A stretch of DNA of 32,826 nucleotides from Anaerolineales bacterium (GTDB taxonomy: Bacteria; Chloroflexota; Anaerolineae; E26-bin7), in NCBI GenBank assembly GCA_004377365.1, contig SOHZ01000653.1, forward strand, positions 1 to 32,826, read 5' to 3'. Below the pieces are notes generated by a model that saw nothing but the letters and a program-made list of their open reading frames with translations, made no database searches and was not told the DNA's origin. Below are positions 1-32,826 of the stretch, piece after piece. Every line of letters starts with the position of its first letter. Position 1 is the stretch's first letter. Position numbers and translations under genes: made by a program.

Positions 1-4
1 GTTC

Positions 5-661
5 GTGGACAACTGCGTGCCCGCAGAGTACCACGAGGAGGCGAAAGCCCAAGGGCTGAACGTGCACCAGTTGCTGGAGCAGAAAGCCGCTCAGCAGAAG
101 CCAGGCGAGCACGGGCTCGTCGCGCTGGATTGGTGGAACGGCAACCGCTCCATTCTGGTGGACGTGGACCTGACTGGCCTGCTGGTAGGGGCGACGCTGG
201 CTACCAAGCCGGAGGACATCTACCGGGCGTTGATCGAAGCCACAGCCTATGGCACGCGGGTGATCATCGAGGCCTTTGAGAAAAATGGCGTCGCTGTGAA
301 TGAGATCGTTGCCTGCGGGGGGCTGCCGGAGCGGAACAGGCTTCTGATGCAGATCTACTCCGACGTCACCGGGCGGGAGATCAGGGTGGCGGCCACGGCC
401 CAGGCAGGAGCCTTCGGCTCGGCAATGTTCGCCGCTGTGGCTGCGGGCAAGGAAGCCGGCGGTTACGACTCTATCTTGGAGGCGGCCAAACAGATGGCTC
501 GCCTGAAGGACGTCGTCTATCGGCCCAACCCGGCCCACAATGCCGTCTACGATCAGCTCTACGCGGAGTACCTAAAGTTACATGACTACTTCGGCCGGGG
601 GCAGAACGACGTGATGAAGCGGTTGAAGGTCCTCCGGCAGCAGGTTCTGGCTGGCGATTAG
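5..661 (+). CDS. araB: Ribulokinase (FGGY family), C-terminal part, truncated by window start
   Basis: FGGY C-terminal motifs ([53 protein letters not shown]) and adjacency to araD. Confidence 0.85.
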
Positions 662-681
662 CCCGCCATAGGAGAGACCCT

Positions 682-1323
682 ATGCTCGAGCATCTCAAGG
701 AAGAGGTCTATAAACTACACCTGGAACTACCCAAGTATGGCCTGGTAGTCTGGACGAGCGGCAATGTCAGCGCCAGAGATCCGGAGAGCGGCCTGGTGGT
801 GATCAAACCCAGTGGTATACCCTACGAAGAACTGCGCCCAGAGCATCACGTCGTCGTGAACTTGCAGGGCGACATAGTAGAGGGAACGCTCAAGCCCTCG
901 TCCGACACGACCAGCCATCTCTACATCTACCGGCAAAGGGAGGATGTCAACGGCGTGGTTCATACACATTCTCCTTACGCCACCGCCTTTGCTGCAGTGG
1001 GCAGGCCTATCCCGGTCTATCTCACCGCGATGGGCGACGAGTTTGGCGGACCCATTCCCTGTGCCGGTTTCGCCTTGATTGGCGATGAGGAGATTGGCCA
1101 GCAGGTGGTGGAGCATATTGGCTCGTCGCCGGCCGTGCTCCTCAAGCAACACGGCGTCTTCACTGTGGGCGCCACTGCCGAGGCCGCCGTCAAGGCCGCG
1201 GTCATGGTGGAAGATGTAGCGCGTACAGTGTGGCTTGCGCTGCAACTGGGACAGCCGGATGAGATTCTCCCAGAAGATGTGGCCAAGTTGCACTATCGCT
1301 ACACCCACGTTTACGGTCAGTAG
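682..1323 (+). CDS. araD: L-ribulose-5-phosphate 4-epimerase (class II aldolase family)
   Basis: SGNVSARDPESGLVVIKPSG, HTHSPYATAFAA, LLKQHGVFTVG motifs; 20 nt after araB. Confidence 0.9.
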   Translation: MLEHLKEEVYKLHLELPKYGLVVWTSGNVSARDPESGLVVIKPSGIPYEELRPEHHVVVNLQGDIVEGTLKPSSDTTSHLYIYRQREDVNGVVHTHSPYATAFAAVGRPIPVYLTAMGDEFGGPIPCAGFALIGDEEIGQQVVEHIGSSPAVLLKQHGVFTVGATAEAAVKAAVMVEDVARTVWLALQLGQPDEILPEDVAKLHYRYTHVYGQ

Positions 1324-1395
1324 GAGCCCCAAGAAGCTAAGCTCCATAGTGCTGTCTAAGTAAGCTAGGTATGACGACCGCAGTTCCGAAAGAAG

Positions 1396-1426
1396 AAAGC
1401 TCCCGGCTCGAATGGCCGGGAGCTTT
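1396..1426 (-). terminator. Intrinsic terminator-like hairpin downstream of tRNA-Gly
   Basis: AAAGCTCCCGGC / GCCGGGAGCTTT 12-bp stem with short loop, T-rich tract on minus strand (tttcttcttt). Confidence 0.75.
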
Positions 1427-1456
1427 GTCTACGGGTGGGGGCTCCCTCCTAGAGGA

Positions 1457-1527
1457 GCGGGTGATGGGATTCGAACCCACGGCCGCCTGCTTGGGAAGCA
1501 GATGCGCTACCACTGCGCTACACCCGC
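1457..1527 (-). tRNA. tRNA-Gly (anticodon CCC), CCA not encoded
   Basis: Cloverleaf readable: GCGGGTG/CACCCGC acceptor, GCGC D stem, TCTGC-TTCCCAA-GCAGG anticodon arm, GTGGGTTCGAATCCCAT T arm. Confidence 0.95.
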
Positions 1528-1641
1528 ACGGCATATTGTACTCAGGCTTATGATATTATACTCCAAAGCTCTATGTTTTGCAAGTACGAACTATCTAGAA
1601 ACCCTATGGCTTTCTAGGACAGTTCGGCAGAAATGAGCTAT

Positions 1642-1766
1642 CGGTTATCTGCTTAGAGGGGATCACCAGATCCCCGTCTGAAGCGCCGATTTTGCCGCAC
1701 AAGGCCGGGATCTGGCGATCTCTGGCGAGCACACAACTGGTGATGGATTTATGCCATCGTGTACTA
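1642..1766 (-). repeat. Dispersed structured repeat, copy 1 (partner at 26274-26419)
   Basis: Near-identical sequence to 26274-26419 including GGGGATC..GATCCCC and GATGG..CCATC hairpins. Confidence 0.85.
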
Positions 1767-2557
1767 GCTCTCCAGTAGCCCCTGCCGCCCGAGCCGGACG
1801 CTGGCCTCTAGCACGGCCTCGGCTTGAAGGTGACAGGCAGTGCGATAGACCTCATCTAGCCGGGCGGGGTTCCAGCCCTGCGCCAGCTCAATGTACGGCT
1901 GGAAGAGCACACCGCCGAGGACTCCCAGCGCCCGGGTCACAGCGAACAACGTGCTGGCCTCGCCGTTCTCCATGCACAGGCAGCCACGCTCGCGGAAGCC
2001 CTTCGCCATCTGTGGCGTAATGCGATACAACGCCTCACAGGACGCGTTTCCGCCCACATGCACCCTTGCTCCCCGTTCGCGGCAGGCCGCCGCCAAGACC
2101 TCGACCACGACCGGATCAGCGTAAACTTGGCCGAGGTGTTGCCGTAGTGAATCGAAGTCCCGTCGGGACCGACGGAAAACGCGGGCACGATCAGGTCGCC
2201 GAACTGGACCGGTGACCCCAGCGACCAAGCGGCGCAGACCAGGAAGATGGCCTGCACTCCGCAGGCGACCAGGTCCTCCACGATGCAGGCCAGCGGGGAA
2301 GCTCCCATTGGCGGGACAAGCACCGTGACGTCTATCCCCTCAAATGCACCACGCTTCACGATTTCGGCGGCCGCGTAGGGGTGGTGGTACGGCGTGATCC
2401 ACGCCGTGTCCTCCAGTCCACAGAGTGCCTGCAGCCAATCCACGACCGCTTTCGAGAAAGTCAACACAGCGACGCCCCCCAGCTTTAACTCCCCGTCGCC
2501 GAGCCCTGCCTGCCGGGCAGCAGACAGGGTCTGTTCTGGTGTGATCAGCCACGTCAT
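1764..2557 (-). pseudogene. Nucleoside (uridine/purine) phosphorylase-like protein, interrupted by a frameshift near 2121-2132
   Basis: N-terminal half in ORF 1937-2557 (…GVQAIFLVCAAWSLGSPVQFGDLIVPAFSVGPDGTSIHYGNTSA) continues in a different frame in ORF 1764-2228 (VYADPVVVEVLAAACRERGARVHVGGNASCEALYRITPQMAKGFRERGCLCMENGEASTLFAVTRALGVLGG). Confidence 0.75.
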
Positions 2558-2584
2558 TCTTTTTCTCCTCCTAATCGGGCGATT

Positions 2585-3709
2585 TCAATCCACCTTTCTC
2601 CGGCCCAGAATCAGAAACGTTGCCGTCAGGCTGCCTATGCCCAATACTATCAGGGCGGCTGCTTCTACCCAGATGTATTGTAAAACAACACCCTTCACCA
2701 TAATGTAGCGGACGATGATGAGATAGTGCTTGATAGGGAAAAGGTTCGAAGCGGCGCGCAGCAATGGAGGCATGTTTTCTACTGAGACTATATAGCCGGA
2801 GAAGACCATCTCCGTCATCGCCAGCAAAAAGACGAAAAGCAACGCCTGTTGCTGGTCACGAGCTATGGCCGAGATCATGATGCCCCACCCCAACTCCACC
2901 GTGATGAACAGCAGGGTCAGGGAGAGCAGCAACCACACCGAGCCCCGCAAAGGTACGTTGAACCCCCAGACGGTCAAGGGCAAAAGCAAGAAAAAGTCCA
3001 CACAGGCGATAACCATCGCCGGAATAGCCTTGCCGATGATCAATTCCAGACTGGTCAGCGGCGTGACCAGCAGTTGCTCCAGGGTGCCCAACTCCCGTTC
3101 CCGGGCGATGCCTACGGCCGCTACCAACAAAGTCACCATATAGACGACAAAGCCCAGTTCGGCGGGGATGGCGTAGAGGCCATATTCCAATTCCTCGTTG
3201 AAACGGGCTATCATACGCAGATCAATGGGCGTGCCCGCATCCCCGGCTCCGCCCCACCGGGAAGCTAACTTTTGTCCCCATTCAGCGACAGCCCCTTCTA
3301 TGGCCTGCCGAACTGTTCCGGAGGCAATCATATTGGAGCCGTCAATGATCACCTGGAGCTGGGGTACACTGTTGGCGGCCTCCAACTCGGCGGCGAAACC
3401 GGGTGGGATGAGGAGGGCCACGGTGGCCTTGCCCCCCTCGATCAACTCCTGGGTCTCTCCCAGAGAATCGGGATAGGCGGTGACATCCAGAGTACCGGCG
3501 TTGGTCACGGCTGTGACCAGGGCCCGGCTGATCTGGCTTCTGTCCTGATCAAAGACAACCAGAGAAAGGTGTTCTACATCCTTGGAAGTTGCCCAGGCCA
3601 TCAACACCAACTGAAGGAGCGGCCCCAGAAGGATGAAAGGTGTGGTCACCCTGTCGCGGCTAAAATGGATGAACTCTTTGAGAGCCAATTGCCAGATACG
3701 ATTGAGCAT
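2585..3709 (-). CDS. ABC-2 type transporter permease
   Basis: ARERELGTLEQLLVTPLTSLELIIGK motif, N-terminal TM plus C-terminal TM cluster. Confidence 0.85.
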   Translation of the reverse strand: MLNRIWQLALKEFIHFSRDRVTTPFILLGPLLQLVLMAWATSKDVEHLSLVVFDQDRSQISRALVTAVTNAGTLDVTAYPDSLGETQELIEGGKATVALLIPPGFAAELEAANSVPQLQVIIDGSNMIASGTVRQAIEGAVAEWGQKLASRWGGAGDAGTPIDLRMIARFNEELEYGLYAIPAELGFVVYMVTLLVAAVGIARERELGTLEQLLVTPLTSLELIIGKAIPAMVIACVDFFLLLPLTVWGFNVPLRGSVWLLLSLTLLFITVELGWGIMISAIARDQQQALLFVFLLAMTEMVFSGYIVSVENMPPLLRAASNLFPIKHYLIIVRYIMVKGVVLQYIWVEAAALIVLGIGSLTATFLILGRRKVD

Positions 3710-3731
3710 CCCGTCCCCTACAACTCGAATA

Positions 3732-4865
3732 TCACCTCAGTTTCTTCCGAAACAGGCCGATCCCCAGCCCCAGAGATACGCCCCCCAACACAGCCAGGAC
3801 CAGCGCCTCCGGCCACAGCTCGGCCAGCCCGACGCCTTTCAGCAAAACCCCGCGGGCGATGGTCACAAAGTAGGTGGTAGGCAGGCTGTAGGACGCCAAC
3901 GTACTGGGCGAAATCTCTCTGGGAACGGGCTGGTAGAGACCTGAGAGAAAGAAGCTGGGCAGAAAGAAGATGAGAAAATTCCCGATCATGGCCGCCTGTT
4001 GACTGGATACGAAACTGGCCATGAGCAAACTCAGCCCCATGGTAGCCACCAGTAAGTCCAGGGTCAACAGACCGAAGACCAGCACATTTCCGCGAAAAGG
4101 AACTTTGAACCAGACGGTCGCCATTATGATGGCCAGGAAACAGCTCAGAAGGCCGCTGATGACGTAGGGGATCATTTTGCCAAACCAGAACTCAGCCCGT
4201 CCCATAGGAGTGACCAGCAATTGCTCCAGGGTGCCCATCTCTTTCTCGCGGGCGAGGGCCACGGCACTGGAGAGCGTCGGCATAATCAGCACCATGCCCA
4301 GTAGGCCCGGCACCAGGCTGAAGAGAGAACGCTCGCCAGGGTTGTACCAGATGCGCAGGCGCACATCTACAGGTAAGGTAGAAGCCAGTGCTGCACCGGA
4401 GGGGGACACAGGCCCCAATTCCTCCAGGACGATGAAGCCCTGGGTGCGAGCTCGGACCCGGGCCAGAGCATCGCGGGCTATCACGGGGTCTGTACCATCG
4501 AGAATCACCTGGATCTGAGCGGAACGGCGGCGTCCCAAATCGGCCTGGAAGCCAGGTGGGATAACGACTACAGCGCTCGCCTGGCGACGGAGAAACCAGC
4601 CATCTACCTCGCTGTAGCTCGATACGTAGCCTGCCAGGGAGACGTTCTCTTCGCTGACGAGACCAGCCACGTACCGCCGCGACAACTCGCTCCTGTCCTG
4701 ATCGAGCACAGCGTAAGAGACCTGCTGGACATCAAAGGTCAAGACGTAAGTGAGAGTGAAAAGAAGAAAAGCCGGGGAAAGGGTCACCAGAAACAGGGTA
4801 CGGGGGTCGCGAATGATGTGCAGACATTCTTTACGCATGATGGCCAGGGTTCGATGTAGGGACAT
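3732..4865 (-). CDS. ABC-2 type transporter permease
   Basis: AREKEMGTLEQLLVTPMGRAEFWFGK motif, same architecture as downstream gene. Confidence 0.85.
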   Translation of the reverse strand: MSLHRTLAIMRKECLHIIRDPRTLFLVTLSPAFLLFTLTYVLTFDVQQVSYAVLDQDRSELSRRYVAGLVSEENVSLAGYVSSYSEVDGWFLRRQASAVVVIPPGFQADLGRRRSAQIQVILDGTDPVIARDALARVRARTQGFIVLEELGPVSPSGAALASTLPVDVRLRIWYNPGERSLFSLVPGLLGMVLIMPTLSSAVALAREKEMGTLEQLLVTPMGRAEFWFGKMIPYVISGLLSCFLAIIMATVWFKVPFRGNVLVFGLLTLDLLVATMGLSLLMASFVSSQQAAMIGNFLIFFLPSFFLSGLYQPVPREISPSTLASYSLPTTYFVTIARGVLLKGVGLAELWPEALVLAVLGGVSLGLGIGLFRKKLR

Positions 4866-8813: not shown

Positions 8814-10454
8814 ATGCATCCTCTGGAGATCCTTCAAGGCTACCGTTTGGGTGGACATCAGGCCACCGTGGAGTTGGGTGCACCCATCATCCACATTGAT
8901 TTTGACGTCCTCAAGCTGGTAGAAGACATCCAGGCCGGCAAGGTGAAAGCGGTCATTCTAACTGGCACCGCCGGTGATGGCAAAACCTACCTGGCCTACC
9001 GCGTCATAGGCGCCTTGGAACTGGATCGCACTACTGTCGCTGCTGCACAGGCCGAGGGTGGCTACGACCAGGGCGGCACCTATATTGACCTGGACCTTTC
9101 CGCTGGCCCCCTGACGGACGCTCGCGTGCGGCGGCTGCATCAAGTCCTTAGCACGCCAGGTAGGCTCACGCTTGTCTGCGCCAACGAGGGTAAACTCTCC
9201 GAATTAGAAGAGAGATTCCGTAGCGCCAGTCTGGATATTCCCCAGACGCCCTTGCGTATCAATCTCAGCCGCCGAGCGCTGGTGAGTCCCAAAGCATGGG
9301 ACAAAGTCCGTCGCGGTGTGCTAGACGCGCCCTTTTGGGGCGAAGCGGACCTGTCTAAAACGCACATCATGACTCGCAACCGTGCCTGGCTGCAAGACTC
9401 GACTGTAATGGAGAACGTGCGCCGCTATCTGCTGTTGCCCTACCTCTTGGGCGAGCCGATTACCGTCCGTGAGGTGCTTTCCTTCCTGGCCTACTCCCTT
9501 ACCGGTGATCTGACGCTGGAAGAGGCTGAGCAGATGTCAAAGGATGAAAGGCGCGTGCTTCCCTATTTTCTGTTTAACACCCTCTTCAGCGAACCCGGCG
9601 GCTACGTCCACGGCGGTCGCGCTGTGCCGGCTGAGAAGTTGCTATGGTGGATGTTCCGCTTCGACCCCGGCGCTACGGCCAACCCACAGGCCGACCTGCA
9701 ACTGCTTACCCAGCTTGATCAGCTTGACGTCGCGCCGCCGGACGAACTGCTCGACTACTGGCATTCTGAAACGGTTGTTCAGCCAGAGGAAAGATCCGAT
9801 ACCAAATATCGACGGCGCGTGGCTACGTTTATGAACTACGCCCGGCGCTGGTATGCCCTATTCAGCGAGGTTGGCCACAGCGCCTACTTCCCTTTCCGGC
9901 ACTTTGACGACTATGTTGACGCTCTGCTCACGCCATTCGAGAACCTGGATGACGAGGTTCCAACGCTGATCAAAGGGCTTAACTTGCTTCTATCTGGAGG
10001 ACAGGTTGAGGAAAAGTACGACTTGAACCTATACCACGTAAGTGATATGGGCATTGCCCATCGGTCTGTGATTTATAGCCGCACTCAGGTTCCGTCTCAC
10101 CGTTTCTGGTTAGTGAGCGATCTAAAGCTGGGAGACATGACTGGAGATGCCTACCTTGAGCGCCATCCACGCCAACTTTATCTCTGTTATCCGGCCGACG
10201 CTGAACCAGACGATCAGATTCGTCTGCCCATCTCATTGCTGCTTTACGAGGTACTGAGAGGCGCGGCTAGCCCCGAAAGCGGTTTCCCGGCCACACTCTG
10301 GGCCAAGGAACGCTACATTGTAACGAGGTTCATGGGCGCTCTGAACCGCCTCGCAAAAAAACGTCCAGTGGCCCAATTCATCATATCGGTGGGCACTGAC
10401 GAGAAACTCAAGCTGGCGCACGATCCCAAAGCGCGGAACATTGACGTGTTATAG
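8814..10454 (+). CDS. P-loop ATPase, DptF-like
   Basis: Walker A GTAGDGKT (8964-8987); RLTLVCANEGKLSELEERF; ATG at 8814 with RBS gaggag; first of three closely spaced genes. Confidence 0.65.
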   Translation: MHPLEILQGYRLGGHQATVELGAPIIHIDFDVLKLVEDIQAGKVKAVILTGTAGDGKTYLAYRVIGALELDRTTVAAAQAEGGYDQGGTYIDLDLSAGPLTDARVRRLHQVLSTPGRLTLVCANEGKLSELEERFRSASLDIPQTPLRINLSRRALVSPKAWDKVRRGVLDAPFWGEADLSKTHIMTRNRAWLQDSTVMENVRRYLLLPYLLGEPITVREVLSFLAYSLTGDLTLEEAEQMSKDERRVLPYFLFNTLFSEPGGYVHGGRAVPAEKLLWWMFRFDPGATANPQADLQLLTQLDQLDVAPPDELLDYWHSETVVQPEERSDTKYRRRVATFMNYARRWYALFSEVGHSAYFPFRHFDDYVDALLTPFENLDDEVPTLIKGLNLLLSGGQVEEKYDLNLYHVSDMGIAHRSVIYSRTQVPSHRFWLVSDLKLGDMTGDAYLERHPRQLYLCYPADAEPDDQIRLPISLLLYEVLRGAASPESGFPATLWAKERYIVTRFMGALNRLAKKRPVAQFIISVGTDEKLKLAHDPKARNIDVL

Positions 10455-10464
10455 GAGAGAAACG

Positions 10465-11850
10465 ATGGCTAGCATATCCGCAAAGTTTGCAAATCTGTAT
10501 CGCGCGCGTCGTGAAATGTCCAACCCGGCCGACTTGGCACGGCTTTTTATGGCCCGTCTGTGCTATCCGGCTGATACCTGGCTACCTGCCACCGTGACCG
10601 ACCTGGTCAAGGTGTTGAAAGGTGGGCGACTGAAAGGTCTTACCGGTCATGAGGCGAACAAGTTTGCAGCTTGGCTACATGACTTTATCGTGTTGGGGCA
10701 GCGCAAAGGAGGAGCTTCCTTCTACCCTATACACCCTGTGCTGTCCCGTCCCCTCAACAGAGAGGAATCCCGCGCCGATGGCTTCATTCTTACACTGGTG
10801 CGAGCTTTTTCGTCCAACGAGCGCCAACAACTGGTCAATGCACTGTGGGGTCAGGGTGGTCAGAACCTGCCACCTTTTGAGAGGGTCATCTACGACCTGG
10901 TAGAATGGCAAATCGAGGGGGCCGAACCGATGCCCTTGGCGACCATAGAGCGGGCCAAGCCATCTGATGATCCTGGGCTCAAGCCAGCGGCTGTGGCAAT
11001 CCTCGACCAAACCCGTGAGGATCTACTTGTTTTAGCTGGCGAAGTAAACGGTGTGCAAAGTTTTATTGACCACGCCGGGCGGTTGCTGGCACTGGCCTTG
11101 GCTCGCTTTTTCCCGGCTCAAGCCGACGTGGATATGACACTGCCTATCTATATCGCGCCGGCCGCGGATTCTCATGACGGAGTGCGTGCTCTGGCTCACG
11201 AGGCCATCGAGGTTCACCGCGCTCTCTTTGGGCAGGCGCTACATCGTCAGTTTGAGGCTTTCTACCAGGAGGCAGTCGTAGAAGAGGAGAGTGACCGTGA
11301 CCCACTGGATGCAGAGGTGGCACGCAAGCTGACCAAACATATCTTTCACCCCAGGGCCAACGTCGTGCCTCTGGAACAGGATCGCTACGATGACCTGCGT
11401 GAAGATCACAGTGATCTCTGTGGCGTCTCCTATTACTACTATTGGCGGCGCAGTGGTGCGGGCGGTCGCTTCCTGCGGCGGTTGCACACGGCCCAGCTTA
11501 ATCTCTCAAAAAAAGCTGGCATCGCAAACTCGCGCAACCGGTACAGCGCCTGGCACTACTACTGGCTGGCGTCACCTCTGGTGGAAACACTGCTGTTGGT
11601 GAGCCGCCCCCGGCTTGAGCGCGATCGGATGCTAGTGGTCGAACTGCTGCGTGACTGGCGCGACCGCTACGGCCTGGCACTGCTTATTGACGATTCCTGG
11701 GAGGACGTCTACCACACCCGCTTTCGCGGCCTGGGCAACCCCGAGGCGCTCAACGAAGCCAACCAGCGTCGCTTCAACGAGATTCTGTCTGAACGCGGGC
11801 GGCTGCACAAGAACTCTGACGACTTTCCGTGGGTCATATTGCGGGATTGA
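10465..11850 (+). CDS. DptG-like accessory protein of the three-gene system
   Basis: Position between ATPase and large gene; C-terminal pattern YGLALLIDD…NQRRFNEILSERGRLHKNSDDFPWVILRD; RBS ataggagag. Confidence 0.5.
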   Translation: MASISAKFANLYRARREMSNPADLARLFMARLCYPADTWLPATVTDLVKVLKGGRLKGLTGHEANKFAAWLHDFIVLGQRKGGASFYPIHPVLSRPLNREESRADGFILTLVRAFSSNERQQLVNALWGQGGQNLPPFERVIYDLVEWQIEGAEPMPLATIERAKPSDDPGLKPAAVAILDQTREDLLVLAGEVNGVQSFIDHAGRLLALALARFFPAQADVDMTLPIYIAPAADSHDGVRALAHEAIEVHRALFGQALHRQFEAFYQEAVVEEESDRDPLDAEVARKLTKHIFHPRANVVPLEQDRYDDLREDHSDLCGVSYYYYWRRSGAGGRFLRRLHTAQLNLSKKAGIANSRNRYSAWHYYWLASPLVETLLLVSRPRLERDRMLVVELLRDWRDRYGLALLIDDSWEDVYHTRFRGLGNPEALNEANQRRFNEILSERGRLHKNSDDFPWVILRD

Positions 11851-11867
11851 GCAGGAGGGCATGACGA

Positions 11868-14800
11868 ATGACAACCGCAAACGACTTGTTGATTACACTA
11901 CTACTTGACTTGGTGGAGAGAGTTCCCGACTTGCCCAAACGGGTGCTTTTCAAAGGTGTGTCTAACCTGTACGAGAGTTTCAAACAGCGCGCTGCGGCAG
12001 AACACCCTAATTGGGATATTCGCGTCACCCAGAAGGGCGCAGACGTGGTCGGCGCTCGCAATGATCCCAAAATCGCGGTGCTGGTGGTCTTCTACCAAGC
12101 CGAAGTGCGGGAGCGCGAATCCCTCAATGCCTTCCGGCTCTTCAACGAAGACGAGATTGCCAAGGAATTAGCTGCCCGGTTGGCACCTGACACGCTCTTG
12201 CCTGGTTTGTCTGAGCCATACAACAATAACGAGCGTGAATGCCTGGCCTCGCTGTTGGACGTGGTCTATCCGTCGGTTGAGCGGCTGGCCGAATTTCTTC
12301 TGGCAGGCAAGGCCCATGTGGGCGAGTCCTTGCCTTTACTTGGTCTCTTCCGTGACTCGAACTTGCGTCTCGATATGCCCATCCGTCAGTGGAATGCCCA
12401 GTTGCGTGAAAATCAGCAAGCCGCTGTGCTGCGCTGGCGCGACTTTCTTAGGAAGGGCACCGGCACCAAGTCAGGTCGCCGGACCCTGGGCGATGAGCGA
12501 GTGGCCTTGCTGCGCCAGGCCGAAACCGATCCAGCCAAACGGGAAGATGTCCTTACCAAGGTTACGCTCAACGAAGCCCTCAGTGTCCTCAATCCGCCCA
12601 CGCGCCCGGTGGAGCGGATGATGGCGGCGGGCTTCACTCGCAAGCAAGCCGATGATTTAGTCCGCGCTGTGAAATCGGGTAAGGCTGGGTATGCCGGTGA
12701 GTTGAACCTTGAACCGCTGCTGGTGGGTTTGCCTCCTCTGCCTGATAGAGTGCGGCGCGAGTTGGAGGCACTGGCAAAGGGGAAACCTCCAACGAATCGG
12801 GTGGGCTTTTGTCTGGAGGGTCTGTTGCGTCTGGCCGGTCAGGAGCACATCTCCTTCCCGCGCCGGCTGGAGATTCGGCGCACCGACGTCGAAGGTGACC
12901 ATTGCGCAGTGCTGGAGATCGGCAGCGATGGCCGCTTGCATGTCACGATGGATAGTGAGTCAGCACGCTTCCTGAGTGTGCCGAGTGCATCAGGCCCCAG
13001 TGAGTTGCAATATGAAGTGCATTTGAAGGATGATACACCGTTTCGCTTCACACTTGGAGTGATGCCACGTTGGCTGGAACCCTACGACGAGGACTGGCTC
13101 AGCGAAGAATACTGGGAGAGGGCCGAAGCACTCAACACTGACCACGCAGACAAATGGCGTGCACTGCGTGAGCGGGTGATGGCCTTGCACGGTACCGTTG
13201 ATCCTGACTGGAAAAAGCTGTCTGAGGAGGAAGAACGCGGCGATGCTAGCCAGAAAGAGTCATCTGAGGAGAAGGAACCCAACAATCCTATCTATGCGAT
13301 TTTCGACCTGCTTTATTTTGCCCACAGAGAGCTCTTTGATGCATTCCTCGACGAGTGGTTGACTGTCGCCATGCTTCCCTGGTGTGACGACGCCAAGTTA
13401 GGTCAGAAGCCGCAGGAGTGGTGGGAAGCCGTGAATGGACTTTTACGGTTGGGCACTGCCCAAGGCTCTAATGGGGAGATGGTGGTCTTCCCCTTCTATC
13501 CTCTGCGCCTGGCCTGGTACCGCGAGGTCTTTCGGCAGATTGAAGGCTGGTTGGCTCGGGCTGCACAAAGTGGACGTTCGCTGGTCTTTGAACCCAGCGT
13601 GATGGCGCAGCAACTGAAACCGGTTGACCGGCCACGCGTTTTGCTTGAGGGAAAGAGGAGGCTGGTCGAGACCTCTGCCGACCATTTCTTCATCGCCCGT
13701 TTCGTCCCCGAAGATCAGCATCAGCGCACTCGTCCTCCTCTCTACCGCGCCCGACAAAAGCTAGACCAATTCGGTCGAATGTGGCCCTTTAGTCTCGACC
13801 GGCTCCACCTGGCTTTCCAGCCTGGCGATGCTGGCGAGGATATTCACCGGCTGCTGGAACAAGAACCAGACGATCAACCTGACACGGCCTATCGTGTGCG
13901 GGCAATGGTTGAATCCACTGGTATGATGACCTTCTTTGACCGTCAATTGTTAAGTACCAGTGAGGACACTAATGATTTACTGACCCAGGAACACCACGAG
14001 AGCATTCTGCCTCGCGTCGACTATGCTAAAGGTCAATTGGAGCATGACAGGGACGAAGAGGCAAAGTCCCAGACAATTGCGGCCCATATTGTACTGTTGG
14101 TAGATGCTTTCAGTGAAGCTGGGTTTAACTTTGGCATGGTCACCAGTAGAATCAAAATCTCTGACTGGCATAGATTCAGAAAATTGGCGCGGAGTGGTAC
14201 CTCCGATGATCGTATGACACTGGCTCAAGTGGATATCTCCGCACTGCCATATCACACTGAGTCTGCTCAAGACAACAAACGTAAACTGATTTATGTCCCC
14301 CTCAGCGGCAATCAGCCTGAATACCTGCGGATGCTCTACAATTCACTGACGGCCTGGCAATATCATGGGGAGTTCCAAGAGGGTATCTATTTTGAACAAG
14401 TACACTGGGACGCCGAGCGCCTGCAACGACTACACGAGAATGCTGACTGGGTGGTGCTCTTTGATCGCACCCTCGATAAGTCTCTTTTTGAGACATTGAC
14501 CTCGGCCGACGTCAAGCTCATTGACTACTATTCTAACTTGCCGGGCGGCTACAAGATGTCCGTCTCCTCGCGCCGCACCGATGCCGTTGAGTGGCAATTG
14601 GCCCAAGTCTTGCAGCAATTCTTCTCCAGCGAAGGACTAGACGTACGCCAGGTAGCCGCAGAGATGCTTGATGCGCTCAGCAAGTTCGCCAGTGGTCTGC
14701 TACTCAAGACATTGGGCGGCGGTAGCCTGGCCCAGGAGATGCTCGGACTGTATGCGACTTACCTGTCCTTGATTGAGGAGGGTGAGTTCGTGCCAAACCG

Positions 14801-15362
14801 GGACTGGCTCATCCCCTTGGACAATTACCAGGGCTGGTTTGGCCGCCGTACACGGGGGAGGCGTAGAGCGGATCTGATGGTGTTCCGCAATCCCTCCCCT
14901 GGCGTACTGAGGTTGGTCGCCGTAGAGAGCAAGTGGCGTAAAAGCAATGTCGGTGAGCCGTTTGTCAAAGACGAGTTCGGTGAGGGTGGTCAAATGCGGA
15001 CCACTGTCACCAGCCTACGAGACCTTTTCGATCCCACTCAAGATCGTCTAGACAAGCACTATTGGCAAAAAACGCTGGCCTCTTTACTTGACGCTGCTCC
15101 GTTTTGGGATAGTTTCCGCGAGCAGCTTGGTACCGGTCAGTGGTCGCTGGAGGTTGATGGGCTCGTCTATGTTCATCAATACCAAGAACAGGATGCCGAC
15201 AGACTACGTGCTCGCAACGAAGAGTTGCTTGCCGATGTAGTGGCACACTTGAACTTCCCCGCCGACAAACACTTTTTCTGTATGGGTCCAGATGCCCGAC
15301 GGCTGCGACTCAAGACACGTGATGAGATTATTCACTTGTTTGCTCAAGCGGGCAACGTATAG
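11868..15362 (+). CDS. Large DptH-like protein with C-terminal PD-(D/E)xK-like motif and no recognisable P-loop
   Basis: NADWVVLFDRTLDKSLFETL…VKLIDYYSNLPGGYKMSVSSRRTD block, then RRADLMVFRNPSPGVLRLVAVESKWRK; RBS caggagg, 17 nt after the preceding gene. Confidence 0.55.
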   Translation: MTTANDLLITLLLDLVERVPDLPKRVLFKGVSNLYESFKQRAAAEHPNWDIRVTQKGADVVGARNDPKIAVLVVFYQAEVRERESLNAFRLFNEDEIAKELAARLAPDTLLPGLSEPYNNNERECLASLLDVVYPSVERLAEFLLAGKAHVGESLPLLGLFRDSNLRLDMPIRQWNAQLRENQQAAVLRWRDFLRKGTGTKSGRRTLGDERVALLRQAETDPAKREDVLTKVTLNEALSVLNPPTRPVERMMAAGFTRKQADDLVRAVKSGKAGYAGELNLEPLLVGLPPLPDRVRRELEALAKGKPPTNRVGFCLEGLLRLAGQEHISFPRRLEIRRTDVEGDHCAVLEIGSDGRLHVTMDSESARFLSVPSASGPSELQYEVHLKDDTPFRFTLGVMPRWLEPYDEDWLSEEYWERAEALNTDHADKWRALRERVMALHGTVDPDWKKLSEEEERGDASQKESSEEKEPNNPIYAIFDLLYFAHRELFDAFLDEWLTVAMLPWCDDAKLGQKPQEWWEAVNGLLRLGTAQGSNGEMVVFPFYPLRLAWYREVFRQIEGWLARAAQSGRSLVFEPSVMAQQLKPVDRPRVLLEGKRRLVETSADHFFIARFVPEDQHQRTRPPLYRARQKLDQFGRMWPFSLDRLHLAFQPGDAGEDIHRLLEQEPDDQPDTAYRVRAMVESTGMMTFFDRQLLSTSEDTNDLLTQEHHESILPRVDYAKGQLEHDRDEEAKSQTIAAHIVLLVDAFSEAGFNFGMVTSRIKISDWHRFRKLARSGTSDDRMTLAQVDISALPYHTESAQDNKRKLIYVPLSGNQPEYLRMLYNSLTAWQYHGEFQEGIYFEQVHWDAERLQRLHENADWVVLFDRTLDKSLFETLTSADVKLIDYYSNLPGGYKMSVSSRRTDAVEWQLAQVLQQFFSSEGLDVRQVAAEMLDALSKFASGLLLKTLGGGSLAQEMLGLYATYLSLIEEGEFVPNRDWLIPLDNYQGWFGRRTRGRRRADLMVFRNPSPGVLRLVAVESKWRKSNVGEPFVKDEFGEGGQMRTTVTSLRDLFDPTQDRLDKHYWQKTLASLLDAAPFWDSFREQLGTGQWSLEVDGLVYVHQYQEQDADRLRARNEELLADVVAHLNFPADKHFFCMGPDARRLRLKTRDEIIHLFAQAGNV

Positions 15363-15453
15363 GTGACTTGGGATTTCGAAGCAGTACGGTGTTTACTGCT
15401 ACCACCATTTTCAGCCAAATTCGTGCCATTCGTCCCTTCGTGACATTCGTGTT

Positions 15454-15861
15454 TCAAAATTGTCCAGTGTAGAGAATCTCCTTGATGAGGAATGGCAGGT
15501 TGGGGCAAAAGCTCAGGTGAGGGGCAGGAACACGGTGGTGCTTGAGGTCAGGAGGGACATGCTTGTGATGGGGGTCCGTGCTGGTCAGTTCAGGAATGTC
15601 GGGATGAGACCAGTCATCGTACCAGTACAGTTGCTCGTCATCCCGATAGACCTCGTAGCTATAGGTTTGCAAGAAGCCGCTGTCAAAATCAAGGACTTCT
15701 CTAACTCGCAGGTAGATGTCGCCCTCGAAAAAGACCTCGCCTCTGACCACCGCCGTCAGGGGATCGAGGCGAATAAAGACCAGGGTGCTGTATCGCACTG
15801 CTGGAAACTGGTTGGAGATGTCATAGACGAACTCTTCGTACTCTTCCAACGTAAGGGGCAT
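15454..15861 (-). CDS. tumE: TumE-type toxin (DUF6516-like)
   Basis: PHHKHVPPDLKHHRVPAPHLSFCPNLPFLIKEI and YSYEVYRDDEQLYWYDDWSHP; directly follows small antitoxin gene. Confidence 0.65.
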   Translation of the reverse strand: MPLTLEEYEEFVYDISNQFPAVRYSTLVFIRLDPLTAVVRGEVFFEGDIYLRVREVLDFDSGFLQTYSYEVYRDDEQLYWYDDWSHPDIPELTSTDPHHKHVPPDLKHHRVPAPHLSFCPNLPFLIKEILYTGQF

Positions 15862-24864: not shown

Positions 24865-25947
24865 TTAATTCCCACTTCTTTGACTGACTCCCGTCTCTCC
24901 TCCGCTCTGAGGATAAGGACTAACGTTTTCGTAGAACTCCTTGGGTCTGAGCTCTTGGAAGTCTCCCTGTCCAGAAAGGTGCCTTCGCACATCCACGCAG
25001 AGGTGGCATTTGCCGGCGTAGCCCTCCAGCAACTCCTGGTAGCCGTAATCCTCTTTTCCCAGATCATAAAGTCCGAAAGGGCCCGTCCTGACGAGGATGT
25101 CAATCAACGGCGGAAAGCGATGCGCCTCGAAATCGTCGAGGATTCGCGGCAGGTCGTGCCAATCGCCGATGGTCAATCCGCCGCAGAACCAGGAGATATA
25201 GTTTCCATAGAGGTCAAAGTGGGAATGGTGGGCATAGAGAATTTCCATGAAGCAATTCTCACCCTTGAAGGCCGAGGCGGGACGCTTCTGGGTCAGGTGT
25301 CCCAGGCAATATCCAGACCGCCCTGCCGGGATGATACTGTAACCATCCCAGAGCATCCTGCCCGCCCTTGCCAGTCCGAACTTTTCCACGTACCGTTCCA
25401 GGGGAGTGGGCTTCTCAATACCGAAAATCTGAATCTGCTCTATCCAGTGGGGCAGATAGACGATGACGTTCTGCCGGCCAAAGATTTCCAGGGCCTTGGT
25501 GATGGCCAGCAGGGTCCGTGCAGGCGGGATTTTCTCGGCGTGGAAGGGGGAACAGCTTATAAACATGGCATTGAGCCCCGCTTCTCTCAAAGTGGCAAAC
25601 TTTTCGAGGACATCTTTTTCCTCCAGGCACCAACCGGCGTTGGTTTCGACGTAGCAGGGAATGCCCAATTGGGCGGCGAGTTGGACGCCCTGCAGCAAAA
25701 GGGGGAAATTGAGAAAGGGTTCTCCGCCCGTGAGATGAATCTGGAACTGATGCCCCCAGGCCGTGGTTGCCTGGAGTGCCTCTTCCAGGGTTTCAAGGGG
25801 CATCCAGTCTTTCCACGCCGGACCACAATTGTACAAACAGTGCTTGCAGGCACTTTGACACCTGTAGCTCAGGATGATTCCCAGGTCGGTTGGGCAGAGT
25901 GGATCCCTGTACATGACTCTGTACCTTTGCGAGTTAGGCAAGGCCAT
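24865..25947 (-). CDS. Radical SAM domain protein
   Basis: LSYRCQSACKHCLYNCGPAW (CxxxCxxC), HLTGGEPFLNFPLLL, YVETNAGW. Confidence 0.88.
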   Translation of the reverse strand: MALPNSQRYRVMYRDPLCPTDLGIILSYRCQSACKHCLYNCGPAWKDWMPLETLEEALQATTAWGHQFQIHLTGGEPFLNFPLLLQGVQLAAQLGIPCYVETNAGWCLEEKDVLEKFATLREAGLNAMFISCSPFHAEKIPPARTLLAITKALEIFGRQNVIVYLPHWIEQIQIFGIEKPTPLERYVEKFGLARAGRMLWDGYSIIPAGRSGYCLGHLTQKRPASAFKGENCFMEILYAHHSHFDLYGNYISWFCGGLTIGDWHDLPRILDDFEAHRFPPLIDILVRTGPFGLYDLGKEDYGYQELLEGYAGKCHLCVDVRRHLSGQGDFQELRPKEFYENVSPYPQSGGETGVSQRSGN

Positions 25948-29935: not shown

Positions 29936-32809
29936 TTACTCGCTGCAACGCTTCTGAATTCGCTCAATCGCCTCTCTAGCCGCGTCCGCCAGTAATACAT
30001 CCCCTGAAGCTCCCGTGTCCTCTTCGGCTACGCGGGTCAATGCTGGCAATACTGTCGCATCCCCAATTTCTCCCAAGCGCCGAACTGCTATGTACCTAAC
30101 AACCTCAGCGGGATCATTCAAAGCTTCTATCATCGCCCCAACTGCTTCAGGGGTACCTATGTTAGCCAAACTTGACACAGCCCCCGCTCTTATCATGTAA
30201 GGAGTCTCACCCGCGCTGTCCAGTATTCCCCGCAGGAGAGATATTGCCTCTGGAGTCGCAACCTTGCCTAGCCCTCGGACTGCGTGTAATCGGACTAACT
30301 CACCCTCATCCTCAATCATATCAGTGCAAAGCTTCAGCAGGCGTTTGGCGTCAAGCAACTCGCTGCCCGCAGAGACCAGCGCATTGAGCGCCTCCTCTCG
30401 GATGCCAGTTTCACTGCAATTGAGAGCCTCCATACAACGCTCCACATCACTGGAATCCTTCAACCAAACCAGGGTTATGGCTGCCCAATATTGAACGTTG
30501 GGGCTCTCGGTTTCCGAAACCTCCATCAGAAGGGGTTTGACCCTCTCTAATTCACCAATCTTCCCTGTGGCGTGAGCGGCGGCCCGTTGAACCTCTAGCT
30601 CTGAATCAGTCAAAGCTTTCACCAGCGAGGGAACGACGCTGGCATCTCCCAACTCGCCCAAGGCTCTTGCTGCCTGAGATCGAACCTCTGGCTCTGGATC
30701 GGCTAAGGCTGCCACCAGCGAGGGAATGGCGCTGGCATCTCCCAACTCGCCCAAAGCCCCTGCCGCCCGAGACCGAACATCGGCATCTTCGTCTTGGAGT
30801 GCTCTTGCAAAGGCCTCCGCCACTGCCGGGTCTCCTATCTTCCCCAAAGCTACTGCTGCCCACTGCCGTGTATCTTCATCTTCGTGATACCACAAAACAT
30901 CGGCCAAAGCTCCCACTGCGCGAGGACCACCGATTTTGCCCAGCGCTCCTATCACCTCGTGGCGTATAGAAGAATCCTCGTCATCCAAAGCTTGGATCAG
31001 CGCCTCCACAAATGACTCGTCGCCTTTATCGTGTAGCACTTCAGCAGCAGTCCATCTAACCCACCATTCAGGATCCTGTAGCGCATTGCCAAAGGCAGCT
31101 ATTACCGCCGGATGATCCAATTCCTTTAACTTTAGGGCAATCGCTCTCCTTATCGCTGGATCTGTTGCTTTGCGCAGTGCTTCAATTGCCGTATCAATTA
31201 CTCGCTCATCAGCATAGTCAGCATAGAATGTCAGTAAGAGCAACGCCGAACTGTATCGCCTTTGGTGGTCTTCATCATTCAAGGCTTCAAGCAGCCAATC
31301 CGCAGCCTGGGGCTCGCCAAAATAGGCCAGGGTGACGAATGCTCTTCGTCGTTTGTATCCCTCCTCTGTTCTCAGGTCTTCGACCGATGGCTCTACAACT
31401 TGCTGGTACACTTTGGCTCCTATAGCAGTATCCCTGCCGGCCACCCGGATAAATCGGGCCAGGGCTTTGGCTGCCGCTTCCTGAACGCTTGCCCATTCGG
31501 ACTTTTGATAAGCCTCGATAAACAGGTCAACCAGCTTTTCACTCTCCTTCAATGCGTCGAGAAGAGGGTCTTCTGCCCCAATATGCGCTTCCCCCAGAAG
31601 ATATATTGCACTCTCCACCTCTTCGCTGATTCGCGACGCTTCGGCCAGCAGCTTGATGAGCTCCTCAACCTTGGTGGCTTTGCGGATCTCTTCCAGCAAA
31701 CGATGGCTCTCGTCTTCGACAAGCTCGGGCTGGGTTGTTCCCTCTGCCTCACTGAGGCACTCTAACAAAGGCACAACCGCTTTCGCGCCCATCGCTATGA
31801 TGGCAGGTACCATCTTTTCTTCATACCACTGCAGGCGGTCCAATCGGTACATCTGGATGAATCCTGATAGATCGCCTGCTTCCTCATCAGTAGTAGCTCC
31901 GAGTCTGCCTCTCCAATCACTGACAATGTCTACCAGTCTTGTGATCCCCCAGCTATCCTCATTCAAGGCACAACCTGCACATATCTCGAACCAAACAGGG
32001 CTTCCTGTCCAACCAATATCAGGAAACGCACGATCAGGATGCGTTACATCCAAAACCACTTTTGGAACCGGCACATCACCAAATAAAGCGTTATTATTGA
32101 ATTCCCCCAGAGCGCCAACAGCCTCCTCGGTACCAATGTACCCGAGTGCTCTCGCCACACGCCCCTTGTCATAATAGTCGAACTCGGCATCCATCAATAT
32201 CTCTGCCAGTTGGTCCACAACTCGAGTTTCGCCCAGGCATCCAAGGACGATGGCAGTCTCAGTCCTTACTGCTTCGCTTGAATCAGAAAGGGCCAGCCGC
32301 AGCAGCTTCTTTACTTCCTCAACCTCGGCGCTGTCTGGTTCCTGATGGGGGGCAATAGGCGCGAGGATGGCAAATAGGAAAGTTGGCGGTGGCCGTACGT
32401 CTGCACCACATAAGCTCCCCAGAGCAGTTATGGCAATGCAGCGCACATCGCTGTCATTATCAAACAAACACGGCTTCAGTGCTTCGATTGCCCTTGGGTC
32501 TCCTATTCTGCCCAATGCTAGAATAGCAGGGAAACGCAAGTCAGGGTTCTCCTCCTCAAGACAGGTGACCAGGGGTTCAACAGACTTTTCGGTACCCAGG
32601 GACACCAGAAGATCAACAGCTCTCAGTCGTTCATTTTCTTCATCGGAATTTTCCAGAGCAGCCAGTAGCTCGGGCTCTACCAACCAGCCCCCATAAAGGC
32701 CATACAGGAAGATCAAATTCTGGGAAATGGTGTCCGAGGACAGAACCCTCTCAGTCCAAACATTTGCCAGATAGCCTATCAATTCTTCATGGGAGGCAAT
32801 TGATGGCAA
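29936..32809 (-). CDS. HEAT-repeat (PBS-lyase-like) protein, large; 5' end uncertain (TTG start or continues outside window)
   Basis: Many ~31-aa HEAT units e.g. DADVRSRAAGALGELGDASAIPSLVAALADPEPEVRSQAARALGELGDASVVPSLVKALTD. Confidence 0.88.
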   Translation of the reverse strand: MPSIASHEELIGYLANVWTERVLSSDTISQNLIFLYGLYGGWLVEPELLAALENSDEENERLRAVDLLVSLGTEKSVEPLVTCLEEENPDLRFPAILALGRIGDPRAIEALKPCLFDNDSDVRCIAITALGSLCGADVRPPPTFLFAILAPIAPHQEPDSAEVEEVKKLLRLALSDSSEAVRTETAIVLGCLGETRVVDQLAEILMDAEFDYYDKGRVARALGYIGTEEAVGALGEFNNNALFGDVPVPKVVLDVTHPDRAFPDIGWTGSPVWFEICAGCALNEDSWGITRLVDIVSDWRGRLGATTDEEAGDLSGFIQMYRLDRLQWYEEKMVPAIIAMGAKAVVPLLECLSEAEGTTQPELVEDESHRLLEEIRKATKVEELIKLLAEASRISEEVESAIYLLGEAHIGAEDPLLDALKESEKLVDLFIEAYQKSEWASVQEAAAKALARFIRVAGRDTAIGAKVYQQVVEPSVEDLRTEEGYKRRRAFVTLAYFGEPQAADWLLEALNDEDHQRRYSSALLLLTFYADYADERVIDTAIEALRKATDPAIRRAIALKLKELDHPAVIAAFGNALQDPEWWVRWTAAEVLHDKGDESFVEALIQALDDEDSSIRHEVIGALGKIGGPRAVGALADVLWYHEDEDTRQWAAVALGKIGDPAVAEAFARALQDEDADVRSRAAGALGELGDASAIPSLVAALADPEPEVRSQAARALGELGDASVVPSLVKALTDSELEVQRAAAHATGKIGELERVKPLLMEVSETESPNVQYWAAITLVWLKDSSDVERCMEALNCSETGIREEALNALVSAGSELLDAKRLLKLCTDMIEDEGELVRLHAVRGLGKVATPEAISLLRGILDSAGETPYMIRAGAVSSLANIGTPEAVGAMIEALNDPAEVVRYIAVRRLGEIGDATVLPALTRVAEEDTGASGDVLLADAAREAIERIQKRCSE

Positions 32810-32826
32810 CGCAGAAAGGAATCCCT

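Follow-up and report, generated by a model that had tools for sequence, protein, structure and literature searches.

The operon described here is a rare variant of the FGH-type nuclease modules, conserved in two bacterial phyla, in which protein H resembles SspH through its nuclease domain and then lacks the HerA/FtsK translocase. It lies in the window, by which we mean the whole stretch of 32,826 bases that was analyzed and which constitutes the complete contig C164 of a draft genome in 676 contigs. Three intact, co-directional genes, here called F, G and H, are encoded on the forward strand with intergenic gaps of 10 and 17 nt, and an AGGAG-type ribosome-binding site precedes each start (Table 1). 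The initial annotation had reported three tightly spaced genes with ribosome-binding sites, and the coordinates, gaps and sites were all confirmed. Its reading of the trio as a P-loop protein, an accessory protein and a nuclease of the FGH restriction type is supported by the homology of F and H. It missed what is novel about the operon, namely the absence of HerA/FtsK from H, a domain carried by all 65 of the 65 H proteins outside the clade described below, and the existence of an orthologous operon adjacent to DISARM genes.

Table 1. Features of the F-G-H operon, in coordinates of the window.
Feature	Coordinates	Strand	Details	Assignment or evidence
Gene F	8814..10454	+	ATG start, 546 aa	Derived P-loop NTPase, SspF/DndF type
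Walker A of F	8964..8987	+	GTAGDGKT, residues 51-58	Sequence; LTG-AGDGKT invariant in F alignments
Walker B position of F	9171..9197	+	LVCANEGKL, residues 120-128	Asn replacing Asp; AN-G conserved in alignment
Gene G	10465..11850	+	ATG start, 461 aa	SspG/DndG-like accessory protein
Winged-helix-like C-terminal region of G	11557..11847	+	Residues ~365-461	AlphaFold model, pLDDT ~80-90 over most
Gene H	11868..15362	+	ATG start, 1164 aa	SspH/DndH-like, without C-terminal HerA/FtsK domain
PD-(D/E)XK restriction-endonuclease region of H	14376..15203	+	Residues ~837-1112	PADLOC SspH match; conserved alignment block
E957 of H	14736..14738	+	Acidic, precedes nuclease core	Invariant alignment column
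D1002 of H	14871..14873	+	RADLMV, predicted catalytic Asp	Invariant in one alignment, nearly so in another
E1020-S-K1022 of H	14925..14933	+	VAVESKW, predicted catalytic ExK	E1020 nearly invariant

By sequence comparison, the operon is a distant relative of SspFGH and DndFGH, closest to SspFGH, and is not DptFGH. F matches SspF in PADLOC (1.5e-15), and profile-profile comparison with hhalign aligns it to canonical SspF with a probability of 99.9% (E 3e-32). The C-terminal third of H matches SspH (PADLOC, 1.9e-21), with a profile-profile probability of 99.8% for H against canonical SspH. Identity to canonical SspFGH members is only ~20%, and PDB sequence searches returned nothing significant. 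The initial annotation had compared the genes to DptFGH. However, the matches obtained are to SspF and SspH, and weakly to MAD7, while the DptF, DptG and DptH profiles of PADLOC and NCBIfam matched none of the three proteins up to E = 1. Membership in DptFGH proper was rejected on this basis.

The GTAGDGKT and NEGKL motifs that had been noted in the first gene are present in F. Like DndF, which has a derived P-loop with Asn at the Walker B position (PMC10853773), F carries Asn at this position. G of the window has no PADLOC match of its own. Its orthologue in the Chloroflexota locus L063 matches SspG (PADLOC, 3e-7), and the G family is colinear with SspG up to the C terminus (hhalign probability 52%, E 1.5e-4), with a weak C-terminal match of G to MAD7 (0.0015). 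Taken alone, the apparent homology of G to SspG is weak. In the revised description of DndFGH, the accessory subunit DndG consists of three winged helices (PMC10853773). The AlphaFold model of G (mean pLDDT 70) has a winged-helix-like fold at the C terminus only, where the order of helices and strands is compatible with a wHTH, and a Foldseek search with this model gave no significant match.

Judged by its predicted catalytic residues, H retains an intact PD-(D/E)XK nuclease. The ExK motif is conserved in both orthologous loci, L063 and L064, and none of the three orthologues has lost D1002, E1020 or K1022. The remainder of the protein is where H departs from its relatives. Canonical SspH and DndH are ~1,700-1,800 aa long with a C-terminal HerA/FtsK ATPase, and DndH is reported always to possess eight domains, HerA/FtsK among them (PMC10853773). 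H falls short of the usual SspH length by ~600 aa. Specifically, its alignment to the canonical SspH profile of 1791 columns spans residues 3-1106 of H and columns 7-1258 of the profile, and then ends. Six-frame searches of the window, L063 and L064 found no HerA match or remnant, and a HerA encoded in cis downstream of H was therefore rejected. Foldseek found no significant match for the model of H, which is itself weak. One PADLOC SspH model comprises only 1,255 positions, so a shorter form of SspH may already sit unremarked in PADLOC. In the literature examined, coverage of which is incomplete, no description of a DndH or SspH lineage without HerA was found.

The distribution of the variant was followed through F. 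Used as the query against GTDB contigs, an F alignment yielded 76 loci, so that 77 were examined together with the window. When the single H protein was searched against genome and viral contigs, no relatives were found, and a plasmid search returned only two matches, both weak, to the nuclease region of H. Among the 68 loci bearing an H with a recognizable nuclease region, HerA is present in the same reading frame in 65. The three exceptions are the window and the two true orthologous F-G-H operons, L063 (Chloroflexota) and L064 (Armatimonadota), whose F proteins share 65 and 53% identity, respectively, with that of the window. Both have the same gene order and the same end point of H as the window, the H of L063 being broken by an assembly gap of Ns and compared as two separate parts. 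The three loci form one clade in the trees of F (100/100) and of the nuclease (99/94), although its deeper placement is unsafe because of a long branch. A tyrosine recombinase is encoded immediately past H in L064, whose genome (G574) contains a separate locus of SspB-C-D and F-G-H genes (L145/L146, contig C109) in which H possesses HerA and F is longer (877 aa). In L063, H is followed by an 846-aa protein that is cut by the contig end and has no Pfam, PADLOC or NCBIfam match.

Since H has the same end point in independent orthologues, the short protein is a conserved variant, and truncation or frameshift of H was rejected. The missing ~600 aa might otherwise suggest that H has decayed and that the operon is a relic. 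This is very improbable given that the orthologues, at 49-63% identity, keep both the end point and the catalytic residues and that no HerA remnant follows H in any of six frames.

The operon may be compared with several known systems. Canonical SspFGH, which requires all three genes, damages DNA that does not bear the phosphorothioate mark and suppresses the replication of phage DNA, and in the absence of SspABCD it is toxic (PMC8092258). The F-G-H order, the Walker A of F, the colinearity of H through the nuclease region and the best PADLOC matches all liken the operon to SspFGH. In contrast, H has no FtsK/HerA-like C terminus, and the operon is not linked to sspBCD. With DndFGH and DptFGH (PMC10853773) it shares a derived P-loop F, an accessory protein that may be of winged-helix type and a nuclease-bearing H, but DndH has the HerA/FtsK domain that H lacks, and the Dpt profiles are unmatched. 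MAD6-MAD7-MAD8 of the MADS system form a distantly homologous trio, in which MAD7 is the weak match of G. While MAD6 has kinase domains fused at its N terminus, profile searches with the 546-aa F gave no kinase match. Moreover, unlike in MADS loci with methylation genes, none of the flanking genes scanned in the window matched a methyltransferase or specificity subunit.

The one same-genus genome compared, G210, has no match to the operon, and in G210 the sequences corresponding to the left flank (to 8467) and to the right flank (from ~16334) are on different contigs. Thus, the operon is probably accessory, and the site may have been rearranged. Just downstream, at 15405-15466, is a ~60 bp element whose copies, about 90% identical, recur across many contigs of the genome. 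Another repeated sequence, at 15476-15665, overlaps small open reading frames. Elsewhere in the window, on the reverse strand, a large HEAT-repeat protein (29939-32824) matches PADLOC HEAT-ARM_XIII over its repeats (2.6e-41), possibly through repeat similarity only, and a radical SAM protein (24868-25947) with a weak match to prokaryotic viperin (2.6e-8) is probably an ordinary radical SAM enzyme.

No dnd or ssp genes were found in the 32.8-kb window, and the earlier statement that it contains none holds across the whole contig. Taken as organism-wide, however, the absence of DNA-sulfur modification genes is rejected for this draft genome, which has sspD-like, sspB, sspC, desulfurase and dndB-like genes on two other contigs, C546 and C196. 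C546 encodes an SspD/BrxP-like PAPS reductase (559 aa, 2.1e-88), SspB (DUF4007, 1.6e-70) and SspC (4.6e-158). Its first 55 bases are the last 55 of C196, an exact assembly overlap, and SspC ends on C196. Next on C196 come a cysteine desulfurase, a 177-aa protein that is GIY-YIG nuclease-like by eye and has no Pfam match, and a DndB-family protein (PF14072, 2.7e-31). Long PAPS reductases with a ferredoxin-like end are noted both for Type-4 BREX and for some Ssp systems (PMC12839542), and the cluster looks like a phosphorothioation cluster, whether Ssp or Type-4 BREX. After the DndB-like gene come a P-loop protein, a large ATPase, a PglZ-like protein, so read from sub-threshold PglZ matches only, and a stand-alone HerA of 393 aa (DUF87, 1e-12). 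This stretch of C196 (locus L062, 346-8105) encodes a 281-aa protein, a small P-loop NTPase, a 1350-aa BrxC/D-like ATPase, the PglZ-like protein and HerA, a set that resembles the BREX-related capture systems described elsewhere (PMC12839542). Additional DUF4007 and SspC/BrxC-like ATPase genes of the same genome, on contigs C363 (L147), C582 (L143) and C508 (L148), represent at least two more BREX/Ssp-like loci.

The tetranucleotide correlation with the window is 0.83 for C546 and 0.79 for C196, compared with 0.37-0.70 for loci of other genomes in the same phylum and class, and a 36-bp repeat is common to C196 and the window. These observations support, but do not prove, that the three contigs belong to one genome. 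With a completeness of 88.8% and a contamination of 7.1%, the draft genome could include C546 and C196 through mis-binning.

The stand-alone HerA-family ATPase of the sulfur island (DUF87, 1e-12) could in principle supply the motor in trans, in which case the complex would be an ordinary SspFGH that has been split. However, this HerA has PglZ-like and BrxC-like partners of its own, as in BREX-related capture systems (PMC12839542), and no HerA lies near H in L063 or L064. Such an arrangement is improbable.

Among the relatives, the linkage between FGH and sulfur genes is not fixed. Genes of the ssp type were present within the fetched stretch at 60 of the 77 loci, several of the others being cut by contig ends. 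At L073 a closely related SspD-B-C-desulfurase set is found upstream of the FGH genes, and at L116 relatives of the 177-aa and DndB-like genes directly precede F. L030, a MADS-like locus, couples FGH-type genes with a mad5-type specificity-subunit gene. In L063, the DISARM genes drmA-drmB-drmC (positions 3-4235 of that locus; PADLOC 5e-186, 1e-75 and 2e-78) are directly upstream of FGH. SspB, SspD and DndC were not found in that draft genome, and its PAPS-reductase-like matches, on contig C156, do not look like SspD or DndC and have ParB-like and methyltransferase-like neighbors by eye. FGH is not a known component of DISARM, which adjoins the orthologous operon in L063 only, and DrmB is absent from the genomes of the window and of L064. 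A DISARM-linked FGH was not found in the literature examined, again with incomplete coverage, and the word "disarm" is absent from PMC10853773 and PMC12839542.

Based on this evidence, the reading that we somewhat favor is a motor-less restriction nuclease that acts at or near its recognition sites and spares self DNA through a mark made by another locus, here phosphorothioate. F would be the P-loop NTPase that senses or gates, G the winged-helix DNA-binding subunit, and H the scaffold whose PD-(D/E)XK nuclease would nick or cut non-self DNA. Because it has no HerA/FtsK motor, the complex would not translocate as is thought for SspFGH and DndFGH and would either act at or near the recognition site or use a motor borrowed from elsewhere. 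The host would survive because its own DNA carries the protective mark from another locus. We infer the nuclease activity, the anti-phage role, the dependence on a mark and the identity of that mark. In the genome of the window, the likeliest source would be the unlinked Ssp-type cluster on C546 and C196, while in the lineage of L063 the adjacent DISARM genes may serve as the partner. Against C546 and C196 as the partner, their sulfur genes are unlinked to the operon and have their own neighbors on C196 (the P-loop protein, ATPase, PglZ-like protein and HerA).

A serious but less probable alternative is that the clade has left phosphorothioation altogether and that its FGH is autonomous or partnered with DISARM, recognizing another feature. 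Candidate targets are methylation state, DNA ends or intermediates of replication, and nucleotides of a phage detected through F. In favor of this reading, the operon has no neighboring ssp gene in any of the three genomes, within the limits of the contigs, and FGH in L063 directly follows drmA-drmB-drmC in a genome where SspB, SspD and DndC were not found. The MADS-like pairing at L030 is consistent with it as well. Moreover, stand-alone FGH modules have already been described, with the proposal that they detect invaders even though no modification module accompanies them (PMC10853773). The initial annotation had suggested a stand-alone or re-purposed module, and the lack of dnd and ssp genes in the window agrees with this, but given that publication the idea is not new. 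On the other hand, genes of the SspB type (DUF4007) were found in two of the three genomes that carry the HerA-less operon, compared with 25 of 300 other Chloroflexota genomes. This enrichment (binomial ~0.02) is only suggestive, as it concerns three genomes, one of them from another phylum. SspB-type genes are also found in all six genomes with the strongest H matches (G012, G043, G052, G094, G124 and G134), and the absence of DrmB from two of the three clade genomes further argues against a general DISARM partnership.

Returning to the motor-less nuclease, a broader proposal would make the clade a distinct FGH lineage with neither a HerA/FtsK motor nor an obligatory phosphorothioate partnership, whose site-local nuclease pairs with various modification or sensing systems, DISARM included. 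In this general form the proposal is tentative and rather unlikely. If it were true, motor-less FGH would be a new effector module for DISARM. The linkage in L063 suggests that the nuclease trio can be plugged into another defense system and could bear on how DISARM destroys DNA. Translocation by HerA/FtsK has been taken as a core element of DndFGH and SspFGH action, and the domain is reported as universal in DndH, so a lineage without the motor represents a natural minimal version of these systems. It would allow the role of the motor itself to be asked, whether in target search, in cutting or in determining the stage of the invader's life cycle at which the system acts.
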